From Crocinitomicaceae bacterium (GTDB lineage: Bacteria > Bacteroidota > Bacteroidia > Flavobacteriales_D > Crocinitomicaceae), in assembly GCA_021325675.1 (NCBI GenBank), contig JAJTCM010000010.1, positions 1 through 64,000 on the forward strand: 64,000 nt of DNA, written 5' to 3'. The position numbers and the translations under genes are program-made. The notes beneath the pieces were generated by a model. The model worked only from the letters and a program-made list of their open reading frames with translations. It had not been told where the DNA came from and did not search any database. This document shows positions 41,599 to 59,628 of this stretch, in pieces; the stretch's first letter is position 1; every line of letters starts with the position of its first letter.

Positions 41599-44500
41599 TT
41601 ACGCCAGGCTGTATTCGAGCTCAAAACGCTCCAGTTTTTTGATGAAATCGGTGTTGACATCCACACGGATATTTTTCGACGGCATGTTCACTTCGATCCC
41701 GTCAAGCGGGTCGAATACCGTAAATTTCACCTGGCATTTTCCTTCATTCTCAAGGAAAAGGTTGTGAAGATCGGAAATGAAAATCTGGTTGATGTTTTTA
41801 GTCGCCACTTTGAGATTGAGGACATTGGCGCGCTTTTCTTTCAAATCGTGCAGCAATTCCATCTGGTGGATAATAAATTCCGTCTCTTTCCGGAAACCAT
41901 TGGTATCAAACTTTCCTTTGATGCAAACAAAATTCGGGGCGAGGAAAAAATGCTTGAATTTCAGGTAGCTTTCCTGGAACAAAAACAGCTTGTATGAATC
42001 CGTATAATCTTCAATCGTCAGTGTTCCGAAAGGCTGGTTTTTCTTCGTCATCCGGTGCTCAAACTCAGTAATGATCCCTGCAACCAGCACTTCTTTGCCT
42101 TTGTGGGATTCCGGATCAGCCAGCATGGAAATCCTTCCGTTGCAGAAAGATTCGATCTCGAGACGAAAATCATCCAGCGGGTGACCTGAAATGAAGATGC
42201 CTACCACCTCTTTTTCGCGGTTGAGCTTGTACATCGAAGACCATTCTTCGGCCTGCGGGATTTCCGGTTCCAGGACGGCAGTCCCGGTAGCTTCGCCAAA
42301 GAGGGAAACCTGTGCAGAATTTTCGCTGTCCTGGAAAGCAGCGCCGAATTTCATGGCGTTTTCGAGGAACATTCGCCCGGAGCTGTCTTCCTTAAAATAT
42401 TGGGCGCGGTGAACGCCTTTGAAGGAATCAAACCCACCGGCCAAAGCCAGGCTTTCAAATGCCTTTTTGTTACATACACGCAGGTTGATGCGTTTCGCCA
42501 GGTCAAAAATGGAAGTGAACGGCCCGTTTTCCTGGCGTTCTTTCATGATCGCTTCTACCGGCGCACTTCCCAAACCTTTGATGGCACCCAATCCGAAACG
42601 GACCGCGCCTTCTTTATTCACCGTAAACAAATACTGTGATTCGTTGATATCCGGCCCAAGCACAGGAACGCCCATCCGTTTGCATTCCTCCATGAAAAAG
42701 GAAACCTGCTTAATGTCGTTCATGTTGTTGCTCAATACCGAAGCCATGTATTCAGCCGGATAATTCGCTTTGAGGTAAGCCGTTTGATAGGCAATCCACG
42801 CGTAACAGGTAGAGTGGGATTTGTTGAAGGCGTAGGATGCAAAAGCTTCCCAGTCCTTCCATATTTTTTCCAGCTTTACCGGGTCATGGCCTTTTTTGCC
42901 CCCGTTTTCAATAAACAGCGGCTTCATTTTATCCAGTACGGCTTTCTGCTTCTTACCCATCGCTTTTCGCAGGGTATCCGCCTCACCTTTGGTAAAACCG
43001 GCCAGTTTTTGTGACAAAAGCATTACCTGCTCCTGGTAAACGGTAATCCCGTAAGTTTCTTTCAGGTATTCTTCGCAATCGGCTACGTCGTACACAATCG
43101 GCTCATCGCCGTGCTTCCGCTTAATGAACGAAGGAATGTATTCCAGCGGGCCCGGGCGGTACAAGGCATTCATGGCGATCAGATCCGCAAAAACAGTTGG
43201 TTTCAGCTCACGCATGTACTTTTGCATCCCGGGGGATTCATACTGGAAAATCCCGACCGTTTCACCGCGCTGGAAAAGCTCGTAAGTAGGAACATCGTCA
43301 ACCGGGAAATTGTCCGGATCGAGCTCTATTCCTTTAGTTTCTTTGATGTTTTTTACAGCGTATTTGATCAGCGTGAGCGTTTTCAGCCCGAGAAAGTCCA
43401 TTTTGAGCAATCCCGCTTCTTCCGCCACGGAGTTATCAAACTGCGTACACCACATTTCAGAATCCTTGGCTGTGGCAACCGGAACGAATTTCGTAATGTC
43501 ATCCGGCGTAATGATCACCCCACAGGCATGAATCCCGGTGTTTCGAACCGATCCTTCAATTTTTTGCGCCTGCTGGATTACCTGCGCCGGTAAATCATTT
43601 CCCTGCGCGATCGCTTTCAGCTCTTTGGCCTGCTGAAAGTCTTCCTGGCGGTTTTTCAGCTTGTCGATCAGCGCGGCATCATCCAGCGTAAACATTTTGT
43701 GCAGCGAGATATCCGGCACCAGCTTCGCTAAACGGTCGGCCTCAAACAAAGGCAAATCCAGCGCCCTGGCTGTATCCCGGATGGAAGACTTCGCCGCCAT
43801 CGTACCGTAGGTAATGATTTGCGCCACCTGGTTGGAGCCATATTTGTCAATCACCCATTTGATAACATCTCCGCGGCCTTCATCGTCGAAGTCGATATCG
43901 ATATCGGGCATGGAAACCCTGTCCGGGTTGAGGAAACGCTCAAAGAGGAGATCGTACTTGATCGGGTCGACATTTGTAATCTGGATGCAATAGGCAACGG
44001 CCGACCCAGCCGCCGATCCACGTCCGGGACCAACGGAAACACCCATATCGCGGGCTGCATGACAAAAATCCTGCACAATGAGGAAGTAGCCCGGGTAACC
44101 CGTACGCTCAATCGTTGCGAGCTCAAAATCAAGCCGCTCGCGGATTTCATCGGTAATTTCCGGGTAGCGCTTTTTGGCCCCTTCGTAAGTGAGGTAGCGC
44201 AAATAATTATTTTCCCCGCGTTTTCCGCCGTCGATCTCATCCTGCGCATCGCGAAACTCTTCCGGAATATCGAAAGCCGGGAGCAAAACCTCGCGCGCCA
44301 GGGTGTAGGGCTCAATTTTAGCCAAAATCTCCGAAATGGATTCAATGGCTTGCGGCATATCGGCAAAGAGGGCTTTCATTTCCTCCGCCGTTTTGTAATA
44401 ATATTCTTCGTTGTCGAGCCCGTAACGGAAACCGCGGCCACGCCCTTTCGGCGTTGAAATCAGCTCTCCATCCTTCACACAAAGCAAAATATCATGCGAT

Positions 44501-46149
44501 TTCGCGTCTTCCTTATCGAGGTAAAACGTATTGTTGGTCGCAACGAGCTTCACGCCGTGCTTCATCGAAAAACGGAGCAAAGTTTCGTTAACGCGGTTCT
44601 CATTTTCCTGTCCGTGACGGATCACTTCGAGGTACAGGTCATCGCCGAACATCTCTTTCCACCAAAGCAGGGCGCTTTCTGCCTGGTTTTCACCGACATT
44701 CAGGATCAGGCTTGGAATTTCACCGTAAATCCCGCCCGTAAGCACGATCAGGTCTTCTTTGTATTCCTCGATCAGCTTTTTATCGATGCGCGGAACGTAG
44801 TACATTCCCTTGGTAAAGGCGATGGACGATAATTTGATCAGGTTCTGGTAACCGTTTTTATTTTTAGCAAGCAGGACAACCTGTGAACCGTTGTCTTTGC
44901 TCGTTTTATCTTCGTGGTTCTGGCAAACGTTGAACTCACAGCCAATGATCGGCAGGATTTCGGTATTGTCGTAGGGCTCACCGGCTTCTTCCGCCGCAGC
45001 GCGTTCTTCCTTTACTTTTTTGTTGTAGTAGCTCACCGCTTTTTCGAAGTGGAAAGCCGCCATCATATTTCCTGTATCCGTGAGCGCAACAGCCGGCAAT
45101 TTGAGTGCGGCCGTCTTTTTCACGAGTGCATCAATACTGGTTGTCGATTGAAGGATTGAAAACTGGCTGTGGTTGTGCAAATGCGCAAAAACCAGGTTAT
45201 CCAGGTCAATGGAGGAAGTATCAACCCCACTCTGCGCGGCAAATTCCTGCTGGGCTTTTTTCTTCAGCTTCGCACTCTCTTCCTTCAGGTTGAGGTGTTT
45301 GAGACCGATCAGCGCAATCGGGTTCGGGTTGATTTCCTTGAACTTGTGGAAAAATTCCAGCTCTTTTTTGAGTTCTTCCTTTGTAAAAACTTCCGTCCGG
45401 ATCATTTCCAGGAAACAGCGTGTCGTGGCTTCAACGTCAGCCGTGGCGTTGTGTGCTTCGGAAAAAGGCGCATCAAACAAAGCCTTGTGCAGCTCGGAAA
45501 GCGTCGGGAACTTTTGCTTTTTCATGTCACCCAGCACTTTTTCAATCTGGGCTTTTGGCAATTCATACCAGTTGGCAGCCGTTTTGCGGAGCTGTTCGCG
45601 TTCCATCGCGTTTTCGTCATTCTTGAAGTAAGCGCTTTCACGTACTTCCTGACCGTTTTCGAGAATGGGGTCGCCGAAACGGTTTTTCTTTATTTCACGC
45701 TTGTCACCGTTTTTGAAAAAATCGATGAAGGAAGTAATTTTCGCAGAAGTTTCGGTACAGGTATCAAGTACCGGAAGCGTTTGCAGCTGGTTTTCGATCC
45801 CCAGCCTGTGAAATTCGGCCCCCATGATGTTTTTATCAAAGCCGATGTTCTGGCCCACTACAAAATCCGCTTTGTTCAGCGCTTCATTGAAAATGCGGGC
45901 AACGCTTTCGAGGTCCTCCCCCATTTCCTGTGCGAGCTGTGTGGAAATTCCGTGTACTTTCTCGGCATCAAAGGGAATATCGAAATTATCCGGGCGAATG
46001 ATAAAATCTTTCGCCTCCACCAAAGCACCGAATTCGTCATGCAGCTGCCAGGCAATCTGTACCGCCCGCGGCCAGTTATCGGTGTGGGTATAATCTAAAT
46101 TCCAATCCTTGGGAAGACCGGTTGTTTCCGTATCGAAAATGATATACAT
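41599..46149 (-). CDS. dnaE: DNA polymerase III alpha subunit with fused N-terminal DEDD (DnaQ-like) exonuclease domain
   Basis: N-term MYIIFDTETTGLPKDWN...VVGQNIGFDKNIMG exonuclease motifs; PHP FAHLHNHSQFSILQST; polymerase DIDIDFDDEGR, GPGRGSAAGS; OB-like VLVAGIITEFEHRMTKKNQPFGTLTIEDYT. Confidence 0.97.
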   Translation of the reverse strand: MYIIFDTETTGLPKDWNLDYTHTDNWPRAVQIAWQLHDEFGALVEAKDFIIRPDNFDIPFDAEKVHGISTQLAQEMGEDLESVARIFNEALNKADFVVGQNIGFDKNIMGAEFHRLGIENQLQTLPVLDTCTETSAKITSFIDFFKNGDKREIKKNRFGDPILENGQEVRESAYFKNDENAMEREQLRKTAANWYELPKAQIEKVLGDMKKQKFPTLSELHKALFDAPFSEAHNATADVEATTRCFLEMIRTEVFTKEELKKELEFFHKFKEINPNPIALIGLKHLNLKEESAKLKKKAQQEFAAQSGVDTSSIDLDNLVFAHLHNHSQFSILQSTTSIDALVKKTAALKLPAVALTDTGNMMAAFHFEKAVSYYNKKVKEERAAAEEAGEPYDNTEILPIIGCEFNVCQNHEDKTSKDNGSQVVLLAKNKNGYQNLIKLSSIAFTKGMYYVPRIDKKLIEEYKEDLIVLTGGIYGEIPSLILNVGENQAESALLWWKEMFGDDLYLEVIRHGQENENRVNETLLRFSMKHGVKLVATNNTFYLDKEDAKSHDILLCVKDGELISTPKGRGRGFRYGLDNEEYYYKTAEEMKALFADMPQAIESISEILAKIEPYTLAREVLLPAFDIPEEFRDAQDEIDGGKRGENNYLRYLTYEGAKKRYPEITDEIRERLDFELATIERTGYPGYFLIVQDFCHAARDMGVSVGPGRGSAAGSAVAYCIQITNVDPIKYDLLFERFLNPDRVSMPDIDIDFDDEGRGDVIKWVIDKYGSNQVAQIITYGTMAAKSSIRDTARALDLPLFEADRLAKLVPDISLHKMFTLDDAALIDKLKNRQEDFQQAKELKAIAQGNDLPAQVIQQAQKIEGSVRNTGIHACGVIITPDDITKFVPVATAKDSEMWCTQFDNSVAEEAGLLKMDFLGLKTLTLIKYAVKNIKETKGIELDPDNFPVDDVPTYELFQRGETVGIFQYESPGMQKYMRELKPTVFADLIAMNALYRPGPLEYIPSFIKRKHGDEPIVYDVADCEEYLKETYGITVYQEQVMLLSQKLAGFTKGEADTLRKAMGKKQKAVLDKMKPLFIENGGKKGHDPVKLEKIWKDWEAFASYAFNKSHSTCYAWIAYQTAYLKANYPAEYMASVLSNNMNDIKQVSFFMEECKRMGVPVLGPDINESQYLFTVNKEGAVRFGLGAIKGLGSAPVEAIMKERQENGPFTSIFDLAKRINLRVCNKKAFESLALAGGFDSFKGVHRAQYFKEDSSGRMFLENAMKFGAAFQDSENSAQVSLFGEATGTAVLEPEIPQAEEWSSMYKLNREKEVVGIFISGHPLDDFRLEIESFCNGRISMLADPESHKGKEVLVAGIITEFEHRMTKKNQPFGTLTIEDYTDSYKLFLFQESYLKFKHFFLAPNFVCIKGKFDTNGFRKETEFIIHQMELLHDLKEKRANVLNLKVATKNINQIFISDLHNLFLENEGKCQVKFTVFDPLDGIEVNMPSKNIRVDVNTDFIKKLERFELEYSLA

Positions 46150-51819: not shown

Positions 51820-52722
51820 TTACTTGATTTCAATTACCTCTTTCTTCGTAAAATACTTCTTCTCAACATCAAAATCAATGCGCCCGAGGTTTAACCCTGC
51901 CCAGCCCACCTGGTTGATGAGCGTAATTTTGCCGTCGAGGTTCAGCTCTTGTGTTGGCTTTTCCAGGAAGGTATGCGTATGCCCGCCTATAATGAGATCA
52001 ATCCCTTTCGTTTTTTTCGCCAGGACGCGGTCGGAAATTTTATCGCTTTGATATTCATAGCCGAGATGCGAAAGACAGATTATGAGGTCGCAATTTGCGT
52101 CCTCAAGTTTGGCAACCATGTCCTGCGCCCTTTCAATCGGGTCGAGGTATTTTGTTTCGCCGAAAAGCTTATCCGGGACAAGCCCTTTTAATTCAACGCC
52201 GACGCCGAAAACGCCTATTTTCAGTCCGCCTTTTCTAAAAATCGTACTTTCCTGTGTTTGTCCGTCGAGCAGGGTGTTTTTAAAATCGTAGTTCGCGCAT
52301 AAAAACGGGAATTCCGCATGTTGCTTTGCTTTCAGGAAACCATCCATCCCACCGTCAAAATCGTGGTTGCCCATCGTGGCGGCATCGTACTTCATTTTAG
52401 TCATGACCTTCATTTCCAGCTCACCGCCAAAACGGTTGAAATACGGCGTTCCCTGGAAAATATCGCCGGCGTCAAGCAGCAAAACGTGCTCTTCTTCCTG
52501 CCGGATCTGCCGGATCATATCATACCGCCTGGAAACCCCGCCCTGCCCCGGAAATTTGGCGTGGTTCACCGGGAAAGGGTCAATGTTGGAATGCGTATCG
52601 TTCGTATGCAGGATCGTCAGCCGCTGTTTTTTGGAAGCTTCCTGTGCCAGCAGCGAAGGCGCGAGACTAACAGCCGCCGTTCCCAAAATGGTTTTGTGTA
52701 TAAATTCCCTGCGCTTCATCAT
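51820..52722 (-). CDS. 5'-nucleotidase-type metallophosphoesterase, catalytic half
   Basis: RREF-containing Tat-like signal; LTILHTNDTHSNIDPF, LLDAGDIFQGTPYFN, TMGNHDFDGGMDGF, IGGHTHTFLEKP. Confidence 0.93.
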   Translation of the reverse strand: MMKRREFIHKTILGTAAVSLAPSLLAQEASKKQRLTILHTNDTHSNIDPFPVNHAKFPGQGGVSRRYDMIRQIRQEEEHVLLLDAGDIFQGTPYFNRFGGELEMKVMTKMKYDAATMGNHDFDGGMDGFLKAKQHAEFPFLCANYDFKNTLLDGQTQESTIFRKGGLKIGVFGVGVELKGLVPDKLFGETKYLDPIERAQDMVAKLEDANCDLIICLSHLGYEYQSDKISDRVLAKKTKGIDLIIGGHTHTFLEKPTQELNLDGKITLINQVGWAGLNLGRIDFDVEKKYFTKKEVIEIK

Positions 52723-53423
52723 TCTAAAATTAAACGTTGTTCGCGGTTATCCAAAAGGGTTTTACCTTGGATCCGTTCCAGGAAAACGTCCCGGATCAGC
52801 AGGTTGGTCTGGATCACCTCGAGCTTATCCCTGAAAAAATTGGCATTGTCCCCGCCATTCAACAGGTAATCATTCGTTAAAAGCCAAAAATCGCCCTCAG
52901 GCCACGCTTTTTTGTCCCGGTCGAGCAGTTTTCCTTTTTCAATGTAAAAGCCGCTGAAAGGGTGCCCTCCGGCTTTCAGGATCCAATTCTTCATTTCTTC
53001 CGCTGTTTCAGCTTTCAGTTTCACGTAAACCAGGTAATTATCGAAGGGCAAAAGCTTATAAACATCTCCCAGCGAAATATCTCCTTTATTGAGCGTTGAG
53101 CGCAAGCCTCCCCAATTCAGCAGGCAAACGGCATTGGAAGGCCCGCCGGCAATGGGTTGTGAAACGAGATAGTCCGTCACCAGGTTTCCCAGGTTTCCGT
53201 TCACGCGGTCGTTGATGAAATTCACTTCTGCAACAGCAACTTTTTGGCTCATTTCCACATCCAGCTGCAGCTTGTAAGGTGAAACCACCGAATCAACGGC
53301 GTTCGCGCTTCTCTGCTCCGTTTTTACCGGAATGCTTTTGGCCGTTACCGACCGGTTTAATACAAAAGAGCAGGCCGTTAGACCTGCTCCAATGAAAAGA
53401 AATATGCTATTTCTAAAAAACAT
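52719..53423 (-). CDS. 5'-nucleotidase C-terminal-domain lipoprotein (substrate-specificity half)
   Basis: Lipobox LTAC; NLVTDYLVSQPIAGGPSNAVCLLNWGGLRSTLNKGDISLGDVYKLLPFDNYLVYVKLKAETAEEMKNW; 4-bp overlap with 51820..52722. Confidence 0.9.
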   Translation of the reverse strand: MFFRNSIFLFIGAGLTACSFVLNRSVTAKSIPVKTEQRSANAVDSVVSPYKLQLDVEMSQKVAVAEVNFINDRVNGNLGNLVTDYLVSQPIAGGPSNAVCLLNWGGLRSTLNKGDISLGDVYKLLPFDNYLVYVKLKAETAEEMKNWILKAGGHPFSGFYIEKGKLLDRDKKAWPEGDFWLLTNDYLLNGGDNANFFRDKLEVIQTNLLIRDVFLERIQGKTLLDNREQRLILE

Positions 53424-53425
53424 CT

Positions 53426-55699
53426 TTATTCAACAACAAATTTTGTTTGTACGGAACCGAGCGGTGTGTTCACCGTTACGATATAAGTTCCGGCTTTGAA
53501 TTCACTTGTGTTCAATGTTTCGTATTTGCTGTTCAATCCTTTCTTGCGAACGATTTCACGTCCCTGCAAATCGAGGATTGTAAAGTCTTTGATTTCTGTT
53601 CCGTTTACCTGGAGGTAGATCACGTCTTTAGCAGGGTTCGGGAAAACAACTACACTTTTTTCGTCCAGTTTCAATGTTTTCTCACCCAAAGTACAGGCGT
53701 CAACATTGTAAGTCATAGTTGCGAAATCGATGAAGCATACGAAATCTGCACTATCAATGAACGGGTTACGGTTGTTCTGGTTGTTGAACATCAGCTCGTG
53801 ACGTGCAATTTCATAATTATCCGGCGTGTCGGCAAAATGCCATTCTTTCAAAATCATCTGGTCCTGGCCGCTCGGCAAAACCCAGCTCTCTCCGCCGATA
53901 CCGTTGTATGCTACACACATGTAGAACATAGCACGGGCAGCATTTCCTTTCTGCTTAGCTCTCGGCTCGTAGCACATTTGACCGTCATCATCCAAACCAA
54001 CTGTACCTTCCAGGTAGTTGAACAAAACTGTTCCGGTAACTTCATCCATCGGCAGGTTGCTGCGCGGTGTGTTTGCCTGCTGCAGGTTTGTAGGGTACAG
54101 GTTATGCTGGTCAGCATATTCCGGCAAAGTAGAAGCATCGAAAGTCGGCATCCAGGAATGCGCAAAGCTGTGCTCGCGGCTGTAACCGATAGTCGACCAG
54201 TCGAACGGGTCCGTAAACACCTTGTTCTCACCGGAGTAAGCACACGTAACGTAAGATTGTCCGTCAGTTGTATCTTTCACTTCAAAATTTTGCATTACTG
54301 TGGATTTGTAAGCCGCGTAAGTTACAACTGTGTGCGGGTTAACTTTAGCTGTCAGCTCAGTAATCAATGTAGGCTCAGCAGATGTGATCCCTGCATAATA
54401 TGAACCAACGTTTGAACCTGCGGAAGTAACGTTGCCTGTCAAAGGAGCCGTTGTCAGGTAATTTTCAAAACCGGCAGGGCCATTGTAAGGATAAATAGCA
54501 AAGTAATAGGTTTGGTTAGCGATTACGCCACGCGGAACAATTGCTGTTGCAACGCCTGAAGCAGCTACTTTGGAAGTACCGATGTAATCACCGCGCATGT
54601 AGTTCGTTCCGTCAACCGGAAGATCTGTTGGCGCTGATCCGTTTTTCCACAATACGAGGTATTTTTCAGCAGATGGGACACCGTCAAAGTTGAGGGTAAA
54701 AGTCCACGCTTTCTCGTTGGAGAAATCAAGGTTTGTTGCACTTGCCATTGGCTCATCCGCCAGGCCGTCAACTCCCACAGCGCTCAGGTTGATCATGTAT
54801 GGGTTTTCATCCGCATCATCGGAAGCGATTTCAATCACTGCTGAGCGGGAACCGTTTCCGTTTGGTGTATACAAAATATTGAAAGTAGCTGAAGAACCAC
54901 CGGCGATAGACAAAGTTGTCAGGTCAGTTCCGAAATCAGCTGCATCCGTACCGCTGAAAACAGCGCCTGTAACGCTCAATGTCCCTACTCCGTAGTTTTG
55001 TACGGTAACAGTTGTGCTCGTCGCATTTCCAACAACGTAAGTTCCGTTTGTCAGGATCGTATTCCCGCCAATGGTTACGTTGATCTCCTGCTGCGGTGCA
55101 ACATAAGTAACAACGTCGTTCAGGTCACGCGGCAAGATCTGGTAATTTGTCTGAAACTGTCCTACCAAACCGGTAACACTTACCGGACCGGTCGGGATCG
55201 CTGTTCCAACGAGGTTTGTACCTGTTGTGACACGCAGCTGAAGCGTATTTGTCCCGTCAGTAAGGTTGTAGTTTGTATTCGCAACAAAAGACCCTGTTTC
55301 AACGAAAGTTACGTTTTCAATCTTGATCAGGCGTGCTTCAATTGATTCGTTCACCAAAGTGATCGGAACAGCCGGTGCAACCGGGATCCCAACGTTTTGA
55401 ATGTTCTGGTGCGAGTTTACCGGGGAAATTTCCAGCAAGCCGTTAAAATCCATCAAAACACCCGTTACGCTGATAGAGTCACCCCTTCCAACGCCGGACA
55501 AAGAGCTTCCGTAAGCAGCAATAGCGCCGGTAGCATCTTGTAAATAACGGATCGAGCCAAGCTCAGACCCATTGGTAGCAACCCCTCTAACTGTCACTGT
55601 CTGTCCGATAGCGAAGTTATTTCTTGCATCGAGGATATCGTCCTGCGCATAAAAACAGGAAGACAGCAATGCAAATCCGATTAAAATTTTATTTTTCAT
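53426..55699 (-). CDS. Secreted endonuclease I-family nuclease with OB-like and Ig-like domains and T9SS sorting domain
   Basis: NFAIGQTVTVRGVATNG OB-like; SREHSFAHSWMPTF...EYADQHNLYPTNLQQANTPRSNLPM nuclease motif; VFPNPAKDVIYLQVNG...FKAGTYIVTV. Confidence 0.92.
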   Translation of the reverse strand: MKNKILIGFALLSSCFYAQDDILDARNNFAIGQTVTVRGVATNGSELGSIRYLQDATGAIAAYGSSLSGVGRGDSISVTGVLMDFNGLLEISPVNSHQNIQNVGIPVAPAVPITLVNESIEARLIKIENVTFVETGSFVANTNYNLTDGTNTLQLRVTTGTNLVGTAIPTGPVSVTGLVGQFQTNYQILPRDLNDVVTYVAPQQEINVTIGGNTILTNGTYVVGNATSTTVTVQNYGVGTLSVTGAVFSGTDAADFGTDLTTLSIAGGSSATFNILYTPNGNGSRSAVIEIASDDADENPYMINLSAVGVDGLADEPMASATNLDFSNEKAWTFTLNFDGVPSAEKYLVLWKNGSAPTDLPVDGTNYMRGDYIGTSKVAASGVATAIVPRGVIANQTYYFAIYPYNGPAGFENYLTTAPLTGNVTSAGSNVGSYYAGITSAEPTLITELTAKVNPHTVVTYAAYKSTVMQNFEVKDTTDGQSYVTCAYSGENKVFTDPFDWSTIGYSREHSFAHSWMPTFDASTLPEYADQHNLYPTNLQQANTPRSNLPMDEVTGTVLFNYLEGTVGLDDDGQMCYEPRAKQKGNAARAMFYMCVAYNGIGGESWVLPSGQDQMILKEWHFADTPDNYEIARHELMFNNQNNRNPFIDSADFVCFIDFATMTYNVDACTLGEKTLKLDEKSVVVFPNPAKDVIYLQVNGTEIKDFTILDLQGREIVRKKGLNSKYETLNTSEFKAGTYIVTVNTPLGSVQTKFVVE

Positions 55700-55716
55700 G
55701 TCTGTTTTATAATTTA

Positions 55717-58455
55717 TTAAAATTGAAAGGCAATCGACGCATTGTAGCGGATTCCCTGGCCCACCATTACAGAAGCGGACTGCGCATCAAAATTCTTTGG
55801 TAAATAAAAGTTATCTGTAGCATCTGTCAGGGTGAAGGAATTCAAAGCATTTGTAACACCACCGCTGAAGAATAATTCTGATTTTTCCATTTTGTACCTG
55901 TAGCCCGCAAAGAGGTTAAGCAAACCGTATCCCGGGAGCTTCCACGCATCATGGCCGGCATTTACACCGCTTAAGCTGAACGGGTCAAACTGGGCATAAT
56001 ACCTGTCGAAGTACATGTACTGCGCTTTCAGGTAGAAATTCTTGAATGCTTCGTAACGTACGGAAGCACTGTAAACAGATTGAGCGGCATCACCTACGTG
56101 AACTCCTTTCGCGTCGAAAGAAACCGTATCCTGGATATCCGGCACAAACACATCTTTAGCTGAGTTCCATCTCCAGTCACCGTAAGAGATCATGATGTCC
56201 CCCGAAAGCTTTTTACCGGCTTTCCAGGCAAAATCTACTTCCGCGCCGAGGTGGATTGCGTCCATACCGTTGATGTTGATCCGGATCGTAGAAGTTGGAT
56301 CTGTCGGGTCAGGAATAGCTAAACCGAATGGGAAAGGCTTGTTCACCCAGTTGGTAGCGTAACCGTTCACATTCATTCCGAAATTTTTGAAAGCAAAGGA
56401 ATAGCCGGCTTCAACTGCCATGATTTTTTCGTTCACTAATTCCTGGAAAAATTTGTTTTCATTGTTATCAACTACGTTGCTGAACATCGGTGTACGGGAA
56501 AGGTAACCCAGGTTCAAAAACACGTTGGAAGCTTCGTTGATCGTATAGCTCGCCCCTGTTTTGAACGTAAAGCCCGGAACCCATCTCCACTCCGTCTGGA
56601 AATACTCCAGTCCTTCGGAATTGCGGTCGTAAGTCTGTCCGTTGTAAGTAACCGTATCATTGTAACCGATCCGCAAAGTAGTATCTCCTAAATCCAGCAT
56701 TTTTTTCTGGAAATAATCAATCCCTTTGTAGCCGTTGTAAATTCCTGAAACGTTTACAAAAGTCGTCCAGCGCGTATTGGAATACTCTACTTGTCCGAAC
56801 ACTCCCGCCCATTGAACCAATCCGTCGCGGTGGTTTTCATAAGGTTTTGTAGCATCCGCCAGTTTGTCGCCCACACGCAGTATCGGTGAAGCCTGGTTTT
56901 GGTTGCTGGAGTTTACGTAATAGTCACCGCCAAGCAGGTTGTTGATTTCGCGGTAGTGTGTCCCTTTGTAGTTCCTGTAATCCAAACCTCCGGAGATATT
57001 CAGGTTTTTGGAATATTCATAGTTGAACTGGCCAAGATAACCTACCCAGAAGTGGTTGTTCACTGCTGAAGTAATAATCTGGTTGGACTTGTAATCAGTC
57101 GGGTGGTAAAAAACATCTACCGTCGACACCGTTTGTCCGAAAACAACCTGGCTTTGGTTATTCTGCTTGATCTGGTCCCAGTTGATAGTCCCATCTGCAT
57201 TACGCACAGCTGCACCGTAGTTGGAAAGTCGTGTTCCCCCACCGCGGCCGATAGAAGCGTAAGCAATATTTGAAATGGATAATTTTTTATTGACCTGCCA
57301 GAAATCTTTCAGTGTAATCTGTGGTTTCTGGTAGTAATTGGTGCGTTCGTTCAGGATGCGCTTTTTGCCGTCGTGCCCCGTAACATAGCCCCAATGCTCA
57401 TTGAAACGCATACCGCGGTCCATGATTGCCGCCGTATCAATTGTTACACCAAGCTCCTGCGCCCTTTCGCTGCTCCAGTACTGGATCGGCTGGTTGAATG
57501 AGCGCTGGCCGTGCTCCTGCGGTGCGGTAAATGCACTTAAGGACAGGAGGTGGTTTTTCATTTTCTTCTGAACTTTCGCATAGAGGAAGAAGCCTTCCGT
57601 TGGCGTACCGTCAACCCATCCGTTACCGCGCTTGTATGAACCTGATAATGTAACCCCAAAACCATTTTTCATCAAGCCGGAATTGTAAGATAAGGACGTA
57701 CGTGTAAACATGCCGGAAGCCAGTTCCTGCTTGAAGTTGAAACCTTTTTTACCGCCGATCCCCGCTGTGATAATATTCATCGTACCACCGATAGAAGGCA
57801 TCGCAATTTTGGTTGCGCCCAAACCACGCTGCAGCTGAACGTTAGCCGTGATCGCATCGAGACCGAACCAGTTGGACCAGTAAACCGCTCCGTTTTCCAT
57901 GTCGTTCACAGGAACCCCGTCGATCATCACCCCGATGTTGCGCTGGTCGAAACCACGCACCGTGATGCGGGAATCCCCGTCACCACCACCGGTCTGCGTT
58001 GCGTATACCCCGGGAGTGGAGTTGAGCAACATCGGCAAATCCCGGGAGCCGAGCTCTTCCTGGATACGCTTCGGATCGATTTTGGTTACTGCGATCGGTG
58101 TTTTACGATCAGTTACAATGTTACCGATTACTTTGATCTCTTCCAGCTCAAGGCTTCCTCCAAGGGTAATCTCTACCGTCAGGTTGGCGCCTTTCACGTC
58201 TACTTCTTTCACGATCGTGTCGAAGGAGATCATCGTTACCGTCAGCTGGTATTTTCCTTTTGGAACTTCCTGGAAAACCGCCAGACCGTCGATATCGGAC
58301 ATGGCTTTAAATTTATCGGACAAAATCACTTTTGCCCCGGAAACAGGCTGTTTCGTTCCGTAATCAGTTACTTTTACTGTCACCTGGCTATTTTGACCAA
58401 AGGAGAAAAAAGGCAAAAGGAACAGTAAAAAGACAAGATGCTTGCTCATATTCAT
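55717..58455 (-). CDS. TonB-dependent receptor with carboxypeptidase-regulatory-like domain
   Basis: TVKVTDYGTKQPVSGAKVILSDKFKAMSDIDG; plug LNSTPGVYATQTGGGDGDSRITVRGFDQRNIGVMIDGVPVNDMENG; C-term YNASIAFQF. Confidence 0.95.
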   Translation of the reverse strand: MNMSKHLVFLLFLLPFFSFGQNSQVTVKVTDYGTKQPVSGAKVILSDKFKAMSDIDGLAVFQEVPKGKYQLTVTMISFDTIVKEVDVKGANLTVEITLGGSLELEEIKVIGNIVTDRKTPIAVTKIDPKRIQEELGSRDLPMLLNSTPGVYATQTGGGDGDSRITVRGFDQRNIGVMIDGVPVNDMENGAVYWSNWFGLDAITANVQLQRGLGATKIAMPSIGGTMNIITAGIGGKKGFNFKQELASGMFTRTSLSYNSGLMKNGFGVTLSGSYKRGNGWVDGTPTEGFFLYAKVQKKMKNHLLSLSAFTAPQEHGQRSFNQPIQYWSSERAQELGVTIDTAAIMDRGMRFNEHWGYVTGHDGKKRILNERTNYYQKPQITLKDFWQVNKKLSISNIAYASIGRGGGTRLSNYGAAVRNADGTINWDQIKQNNQSQVVFGQTVSTVDVFYHPTDYKSNQIITSAVNNHFWVGYLGQFNYEYSKNLNISGGLDYRNYKGTHYREINNLLGGDYYVNSSNQNQASPILRVGDKLADATKPYENHRDGLVQWAGVFGQVEYSNTRWTTFVNVSGIYNGYKGIDYFQKKMLDLGDTTLRIGYNDTVTYNGQTYDRNSEGLEYFQTEWRWVPGFTFKTGASYTINEASNVFLNLGYLSRTPMFSNVVDNNENKFFQELVNEKIMAVEAGYSFAFKNFGMNVNGYATNWVNKPFPFGLAIPDPTDPTSTIRININGMDAIHLGAEVDFAWKAGKKLSGDIMISYGDWRWNSAKDVFVPDIQDTVSFDAKGVHVGDAAQSVYSASVRYEAFKNFYLKAQYMYFDRYYAQFDPFSLSGVNAGHDAWKLPGYGLLNLFAGYRYKMEKSELFFSGGVTNALNSFTLTDATDNFYLPKNFDAQSASVMVGQGIRYNASIAFQF

Positions 58456-58462
58456 CGTGCAT

Positions 58463-58486
58463 AAAAAAGGTCGGATGAAACCGACC
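58463..58486 (-). terminator. Intrinsic terminator/attenuator immediately upstream of the TonB receptor start
   Basis: Minus strand GGTCGG-TTTCAT-CCGACC-TTTTTT ending 8 nt before the ATG at 58455. Confidence 0.8.
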
Positions 58487-58508
58487 TGATTAAACAGAAA
58501 TATCTGAT

Positions 58509-59555
58509 TTATTTAACAATAACTCTTTTCGAAACGATACCGTCGCCCGTTTGTACTTTCATGATGTACACACCAGGAAGGTCGGTAATTCTCACGTTCG
58601 CTTCGGTAGCGTTGAACTTTTGGTTTTTCACCACTTGTCCAAGGCTGTTGAAAATTGTAATAGCTTCCACTCCTGAAGCAGCTTCAACTGTAAACACACC
58701 ATTTGTGGATGGGTTCGGGTAAACAGCAAATGCAGCTTTTACTTCTTTCGCAATCTCGTTAACCGCAGCATCGCCGCACTCGCAAGCATGACCTCCTAAA
58801 GTAAACCAGTTTCCGAAAAGGATAGCGTTACCGTTACCGGAAACCAGCGTATCGCCGTTTTCGTCAAACAGGTAAGTTACCGCAGGGATTGTATCATACT
58901 CAAGCATTGGGTCGAAGAAAGAAATGTTCAGGTTAGTCACCCCTTTTTTCACGGTAGACTTTCTGATCATAGAGTGGTCAATTGTTACAACAGTACCCAT
59001 ATTGTTATTGTATGGGAAAGATGTTGACCATCCTGTGCCAGGGCCCGGGTCTTCACCTACTTTACCGAAAATATCAACGATTGTCAAAGCCGGTGTAATG
59101 GAAGTCAGGGTTGTTGTCCCTGCTTGTCCGGCGATGCTTCCCTGGAACAGGATAACGGCATCGTTACCATTCCAGTAGAAAGAGTTGCTTGTGTTATAGT
59201 TTGGTGCAAAGAAACCGTCAGCTCTTACCTGCAGTGAATCCCAAATCGGGGCTTCCTGTCCGGTACCATTCGGGTCTCTTTTATCCAGAACAGCTACAAA
59301 TACGCTGTGCGGGGCAACAGTTCCGGACAATTGAACGGCGTTTGCAACCGTTACAGCACCGATTGAGCTACCGTTAGATGCACGTGCAACAACATAAGCG
59401 CTCAGGTCAACTGTCGCGTTTGTCGGGTTGTAAATTTCAAGCGCCTTGTTGTTTGACCAGCCTTCTACGTACTCCGAGATAAAAATCTTGGAGCAGTCCT
59501 GTGCGAAACCGGCGCCAAATGTGAATAAACTAACAAAAAGTAATACTTTTTTCAT
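58509..59555 (-). CDS. Lamin-tail-domain secreted protein with T9SS sorting domain
   Basis: CSKIFISEYVEGWSNNKALEIYNPTNATVDLSAYVVARASNG (LTD); YPNPSTNGVFTVEAASG...LPGVYIMKVQTG. Confidence 0.93.
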   Translation of the reverse strand: MKKVLLFVSLFTFGAGFAQDCSKIFISEYVEGWSNNKALEIYNPTNATVDLSAYVVARASNGSSIGAVTVANAVQLSGTVAPHSVFVAVLDKRDPNGTGQEAPIWDSLQVRADGFFAPNYNTSNSFYWNGNDAVILFQGSIAGQAGTTTLTSITPALTIVDIFGKVGEDPGPGTGWSTSFPYNNNMGTVVTIDHSMIRKSTVKKGVTNLNISFFDPMLEYDTIPAVTYLFDENGDTLVSGNGNAILFGNWFTLGGHACECGDAAVNEIAKEVKAAFAVYPNPSTNGVFTVEAASGVEAITIFNSLGQVVKNQKFNATEANVRITDLPGVYIMKVQTGDGIVSKRVIVK

Positions 59556-59606: not shown

Positions 59607-59628
59607 AAAAAACCTCCCGAAGGGTTTG
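59607..59628 (-). promoter_or_regulatory. Terminator-like hairpin in the 5' leader of the lamin-tail gene
   Basis: Minus strand AAACCCTTCGGGAGGTTTTTTCG, weak 5-bp stem plus U6, downstream of a possible -7 box TAAATTTG (59714-59721). Confidence 0.4.

Follow-up and report, generated by a model that had tools for sequence, protein, structure and literature searches.

Why a TonB-dependent receptor should be encoded between a lamin-tail (LTD) protein and a secreted nuclease is the question raised by a gene cluster of a Crocinitomicaceae-type Flavobacteriales bacterium, found within a window that is the whole analysed stretch of 64,000 nucleotides. As argued below, the locus is probably a module for the capture, cutting and import of DNA at the outer membrane and cell surface. 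The cluster comprises five consecutive minus-strand genes, from 59555 to 51820, whose open reading frames are separated by 53, 17, 2 and −4 bp. In order of transcription, and with two domains of the nuclease given separately, its features are:

58509..59555, minus strand: LTD protein with a signal peptide, a lamin-tail domain and a T9SS type A tail (Pfam LTD and Por_Secre_tail)
55717..58455, minus strand: TonB-dependent receptor of 912 aa (Pfam CarboxypepD_reg and Plug), without a SusD partner
53426..55699, minus strand: T9SS nuclease with DUF5689, Ig-like (ASH) and Endonuclease I domains and a sorting tail (Por_Secre_tail)
55085..55648, minus strand: DUF5689 domain of the nuclease, a predicted tandem OB fold (AF2)
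53747..54367, minus strand: Endonuclease I catalytic domain (motifs REH, DxHNL, NxxRSN and NRNPFID)
52719..53423, minus strand: lipoprotein with the 5'-nucleotidase C-terminal domain (Pfam 5_nucleotid_C)
51820..52722, minus strand: Tat-type metallophosphoesterase, the 5'-nucleotidase N-domain (Pfam Metallophos; motifs DTH, GDIFQ, GNHD and GGHTH)

These five frames and their gaps agree exactly with those of a previous sequence-only reading, and each domain named there was supported by Pfam. That reading had overlooked DUF5689, the N-terminal domain of the nuclease and the most informative domain of the locus. Por_Secre_tail reached 45 bits in both the LTD protein and the nuclease, as corresponds to T9SS cargo, and the tail of the LTD protein (AF2 model, pLDDT 91.8) found NucA and other T9SS substrate tails as its PDB matches. 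The Endonuclease I domain scored 70.1 bits against PF04231 (cut-off 25), and among 124 homologues the REH motif is kept in 107 and NxxRSN in 111; the ASH-type match lies under the Pfam cut-off. Both nucleotidase domains, carried by adjacent genes, are above their cut-offs, with the lipobox LTAC (C18) of the first protein and the Tat-type start KRREFI of the second read from the sequence. A Pfam scan of nine proteins around the locus gave no SusD family match, and a PDB sequence search with the receptor gave no match.

Other features deserve mention in their own right. In the LTD protein C21, H256 and C260 are invariant and C258 nearly so, an HxCxC motif suggestive of a metal site or a disulfide. 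The same genome has a second endonuclease I gene (G000 C1:205804-206478, L001), with a Pfam score of 245 bits versus about 71 for the window gene. The window also encodes, at 41599-46149, a 1516-aa DNA polymerase III alpha whose N-terminus holds an RNase_T-type exonuclease domain.

Conservation of the LTD, receptor and nuclease genes

At E≤1e-30 the receptor was found in 60 of the 99 relatives searched, and at E≤1e-60 in 140 of 395 genomes of the class, a count that takes in weaker outgroup receptors. It occurs in 80 named contigs, many of them labelled Crocinitomicaceae, Fluviicola, Brumimicrobium or Flavobacteriales. Gene neighbourhoods were read for 180 loci, of which 167 have a strong receptor (>850 bits), about seven of these being duplicates of one genome counted twice. 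An LTD/T9SS gene adjoins the receptor in 159 of the 167, across many Bacteroidia families; four of the eight exceptions are flagged contig ends and two keep just a tail fragment. The nuclease is intact beside the receptor in 148 loci and truncated in nine more, and five of the ten loci lacking it are contig ends. L218, L222, L225, L229 and L230 are triad members without a nuclease, and one genome (G047) has kept the nuclease and lacks the receptor. None of the 13 weaker receptors has an LTD partner. One of them (L226, from another family) has an endonuclease I lipoprotein nearby: at L226:3552-6888, a receptor, a 554-aa lipoprotein of unknown type and this nuclease form a parallel receptor-nuclease arrangement.

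The large majority of loci repeat the order, strand and short gaps of the window genes, with median gaps of 43 bp between LTD and receptor genes and 17 bp between receptor and nuclease genes, and therefore the arrangement is not due to chance. The LTD, receptor and nuclease genes are a real module, and many Bacteroidia families have retained its core. The co-conservation of receptor and nuclease, on which the sequence-only reading had made its proposal depend, was thus found. In several families (L204, L205, L207, L215, L220 and L223) receptor and nuclease are separated by a gene whose product has about 150 aa, that of L205 with a weak lipocalin-like match. As judged by eye, the neighbours examined outside the module resemble housekeeping genes, with no competence gene recurring among them, and a search of the open-access literature found no description of the module itself.

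The nucleotidase pair and the possible use of phosphate

The last two genes of the cluster share the metallophosphoesterase motifs and the C-terminal domain with the 5'-nucleotidase family of UshA and CD73, but in the window the enzyme is formed by two genes, C-domain first. Its interpretation as something new was rejected, since this two-gene form is common in relatives. One copy of the pair is carried by 67 of the 99 relatives, whether or not they also have the triad, and in 72 loci it lies behind the nuclease. Elsewhere it is found in or beside modules of a second receptor, described below, or apart from the module (G007 and G028), and in family f71 (L231 and L232) beside the LTD gene on the opposite strand. 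The two nucleotidase genes form a unit of their own, a recurrent add-on outside the core module that usually follows the triad or another receptor module.

The sequence-only reading had also proposed specific phosphate scavenging. One Pho-like pattern was tried upstream of 14 orthologues, the Pho site of Bacteroidota being not well defined, and no repeat was seen; the same scan gave no conserved Bacteroidetes −33/−7 site. With the nucleotidase being a separate unit, this part of the proposal is not supported, and phosphate control of the locus appears unsupported from its upstream regions, whereas a surface locus for DNA use stands in that receptor and nuclease go together. Use of phosphorus by the locus is still plausible by analogy, because the related F. 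johnsoniae nucleases EndA1 and EndA2 (Fjoh_4721/4723) rise under Pi depletion (PMC8115612). These surface nucleases, listed there as orphans, have the same LTD and endonuclease I domains; they unite both in one protein, whereas in the window the two are separate and flank the receptor, and the upstream scan gave no Pho-like site. The leader of the LTD gene contains a terminator-like hairpin with a T run (window 59607-59628, minus strand AAACCCTTCGGGAGGTTTTTT), a possible attenuator; it has no clear counterpart in aligned relatives.

A credible alternative, which we rate a little short of even, is that the module serves nutrition only: DNA would be digested outside and the receptor would import nucleotides or short oligonucleotides as sources of P, N and nucleosides, as in a PUL-like locus. 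The succession of nuclease and nucleotidase in those 72 loci and the Pi response of EndA1/EndA2 agree with such a role, but the Pho-like site was not found, most loci outside family f1 lack an adjacent nucleotidase, and mononucleotides do not obviously need a receptor. As in SusCD/PusCD loci, a TonB receptor with CarboxypepD_reg stands beside surface hydrolases; unlike them, the window locus is without SusD, the partners being the LTD protein and the nuclease. The DNA-degradation loci of Ca. Izemoplasmatales (PMC8289736) also co-locate nuclease, lamin-tail and nucleotide genes, but are not a TonB/T9SS system.

Nuclease exchange and a second receptor module

In 23 loci the partner of the receptor is a DUF5689 protein with phospholipase-D-like (PLD, HKD) domains in place of endonuclease I. 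A receptor tree built from 109 rows requires nine changes of nuclease type, at least seven of which are forced by well-supported branches. Endonuclease I and the PLD-type enzyme are non-homologous replacements in one slot; from the nine changes it follows that nuclease activity is what is kept, and the use of two unrelated folds argues that the ligand of the receptor is the substrate or the product of the nuclease. The AF2 model of DUF5689 (pLDDT 96.5) has two beta barrels, and HIN-200 domains (IFI16, p204, AIM2-type dsDNA sensors) and RPA70 came first among its PDB matches. With TM-scores of about 0.4 for the entire domain, and 0.70 (target-normalised) where one OB fold is matched (ygiW), the tandem OB fold class of the model is secure and the predicted relation to HIN-200 and RPA70 is not close; on this structural basis the domain may bind DNA. 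The window genome has just one DUF5689, that of the window nuclease.

Two genomes of the same genus that lack the triad (G002 and G004) encode another receptor together with a T9SS protein and a lipoprotein of DUF5689+DUF5017 architecture. The nucleotidase pair sits behind these genes, and a divergent nuclease gene of the Exo_endo_phos_3 type adjoins the receptor. In 37 of 38 genomes of the class, DUF5689 lies directly downstream of the second receptor. Of the 99 relatives, the triad receptor occurs in 50, the second receptor in 29 and both in none (14.6 expected; P=3e-12), and within the 60 genomes of family f1 the counts are 32, 14 and 0 (P=2e-6). These P values ignore phylogeny, yet the two receptor types alternate among members of a single genus and also within several families. 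For the 395 class genomes, with 100 triad receptors (≥600 bits) and 88 second receptors (≥400 bits), the sole overlap is G404, where the first-type match has no LTD partner. The exclusion applies to the triad clade only, since outgroup receptors near DUF5689 proteins occur in some of the genomes that have the second receptor (e.g., G295 and G410). Among the 99 relatives, the triad replaces the second receptor module rather than joining it, and no second receptor was found in the window genome. At L257:6200-9734, a T9SS PLD nuclease is followed directly by the split nucleotidase pair, adjoining a second receptor module.

Both receptor families are collinear over 697 columns at 23% identity, and share an LLGGD motif that is rare elsewhere. 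The best match of the second family in the window genome is the window receptor (124.7 versus 47 bits). They form separate clades (support 99* and 100*) in a tree that does not resolve them as sisters.

The DUF5689+DUF5017 architecture of the second module's partner is also that of RA0C_RS04920 of Riemerella anatipestifer, which is essential for natural transformation, as is RA0C_RS04915 (PMC8459023); TonB is required as well (PMC8383284). Transformation of Riemerella falls when phosphate is removed. From this domain pair and synteny, we infer that the second module is the counterpart of the Riemerella system, though the second receptors tested gave Plug only, whereas RA0C_RS04915 is described with CarboxypepD_reg. 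The window locus resembles that system in having a TonB-type receptor adjoining a DUF5689 surface protein and, through the proposed counterpart, in belonging to a distantly collinear receptor family. On the other hand, its DUF5689 forms part of a T9SS nuclease, in which DUF5017 is not matched; the locus also has an LTD protein, and its receptor forms a clade of its own.

In this regard, the module could act mainly in natural transformation, importing DNA in the role of RA0C_RS04915/04920 with the nuclease making DNA ends. The mutual exclusion with a module resembling a transformation-essential system, the ComEC encoded in the window genome and the scarcity of secretins (17 of 99 relatives) speak for this, but it is rather unlikely: ComEC, present in 93 of 99 relatives, was rejected as a non-diagnostic competence marker, the window genome does have a secretin (G000 C9:21952-22452), no competence gene was noticed next to the module, and the nucleotidase genes that accompany either type of module speak for nutrition. 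Another ligand for the receptor, such as a metal or a vitamin, with the nuclease as a surface enzyme that is linked to it and would serve defence or clearing of the matrix, is improbable: the plug region has a weak NCBIfam similarity to BtuB and the receptor is not in itself required for nuclease secretion, but the repeated fold swapping and the link with nucleotidases and the DUF5689 receptor module would be left unexplained.

A candidate route for DNA across the outer membrane

In the preferred reading of capture, cutting and import, T9SS would export the LTD protein and the OB-fold/endonuclease I protein to the cell surface, beside the TonB receptor. Surface DNA would be bound by DUF5689, perhaps also by the LTD protein, and then cut; its fragments would enter through the receptor with TonB energy. 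The two-piece lipoprotein/Tat 5'-nucleotidase, located inside the outer membrane, would strip phosphate from nucleotides as an added periplasmic phosphate/nucleoside step, and such a location would imply that phosphorylated products cross the receptor. We infer DNA as the cargo, together with its size, its fate and every step after surface exposure. The module may serve nutrition, transformation or both. A wider proposal can be made tentatively, namely that it represents a widespread and previously undescribed class of TonB-driven DNA importers of Bacteroidota, where a surface nuclease and a HIN-200-like tandem OB domain are coupled to an outer-membrane pore, replacing the Riemerella-type receptor as the DNA entry route for both transformation and nutrition.

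For Bacteroidota, where secretins were found in so few of the relatives, a single Riemerella screen was the only genetic lead found on the passage of DNA across the outer membrane. The window locus offers a second candidate, which is abundant and has a definite nuclease partner, and would tie DUF5689 to a fold of DNA-binding type. Altogether, the prediction is that DNA entry would be performed by one of two exchangeable receptor modules.
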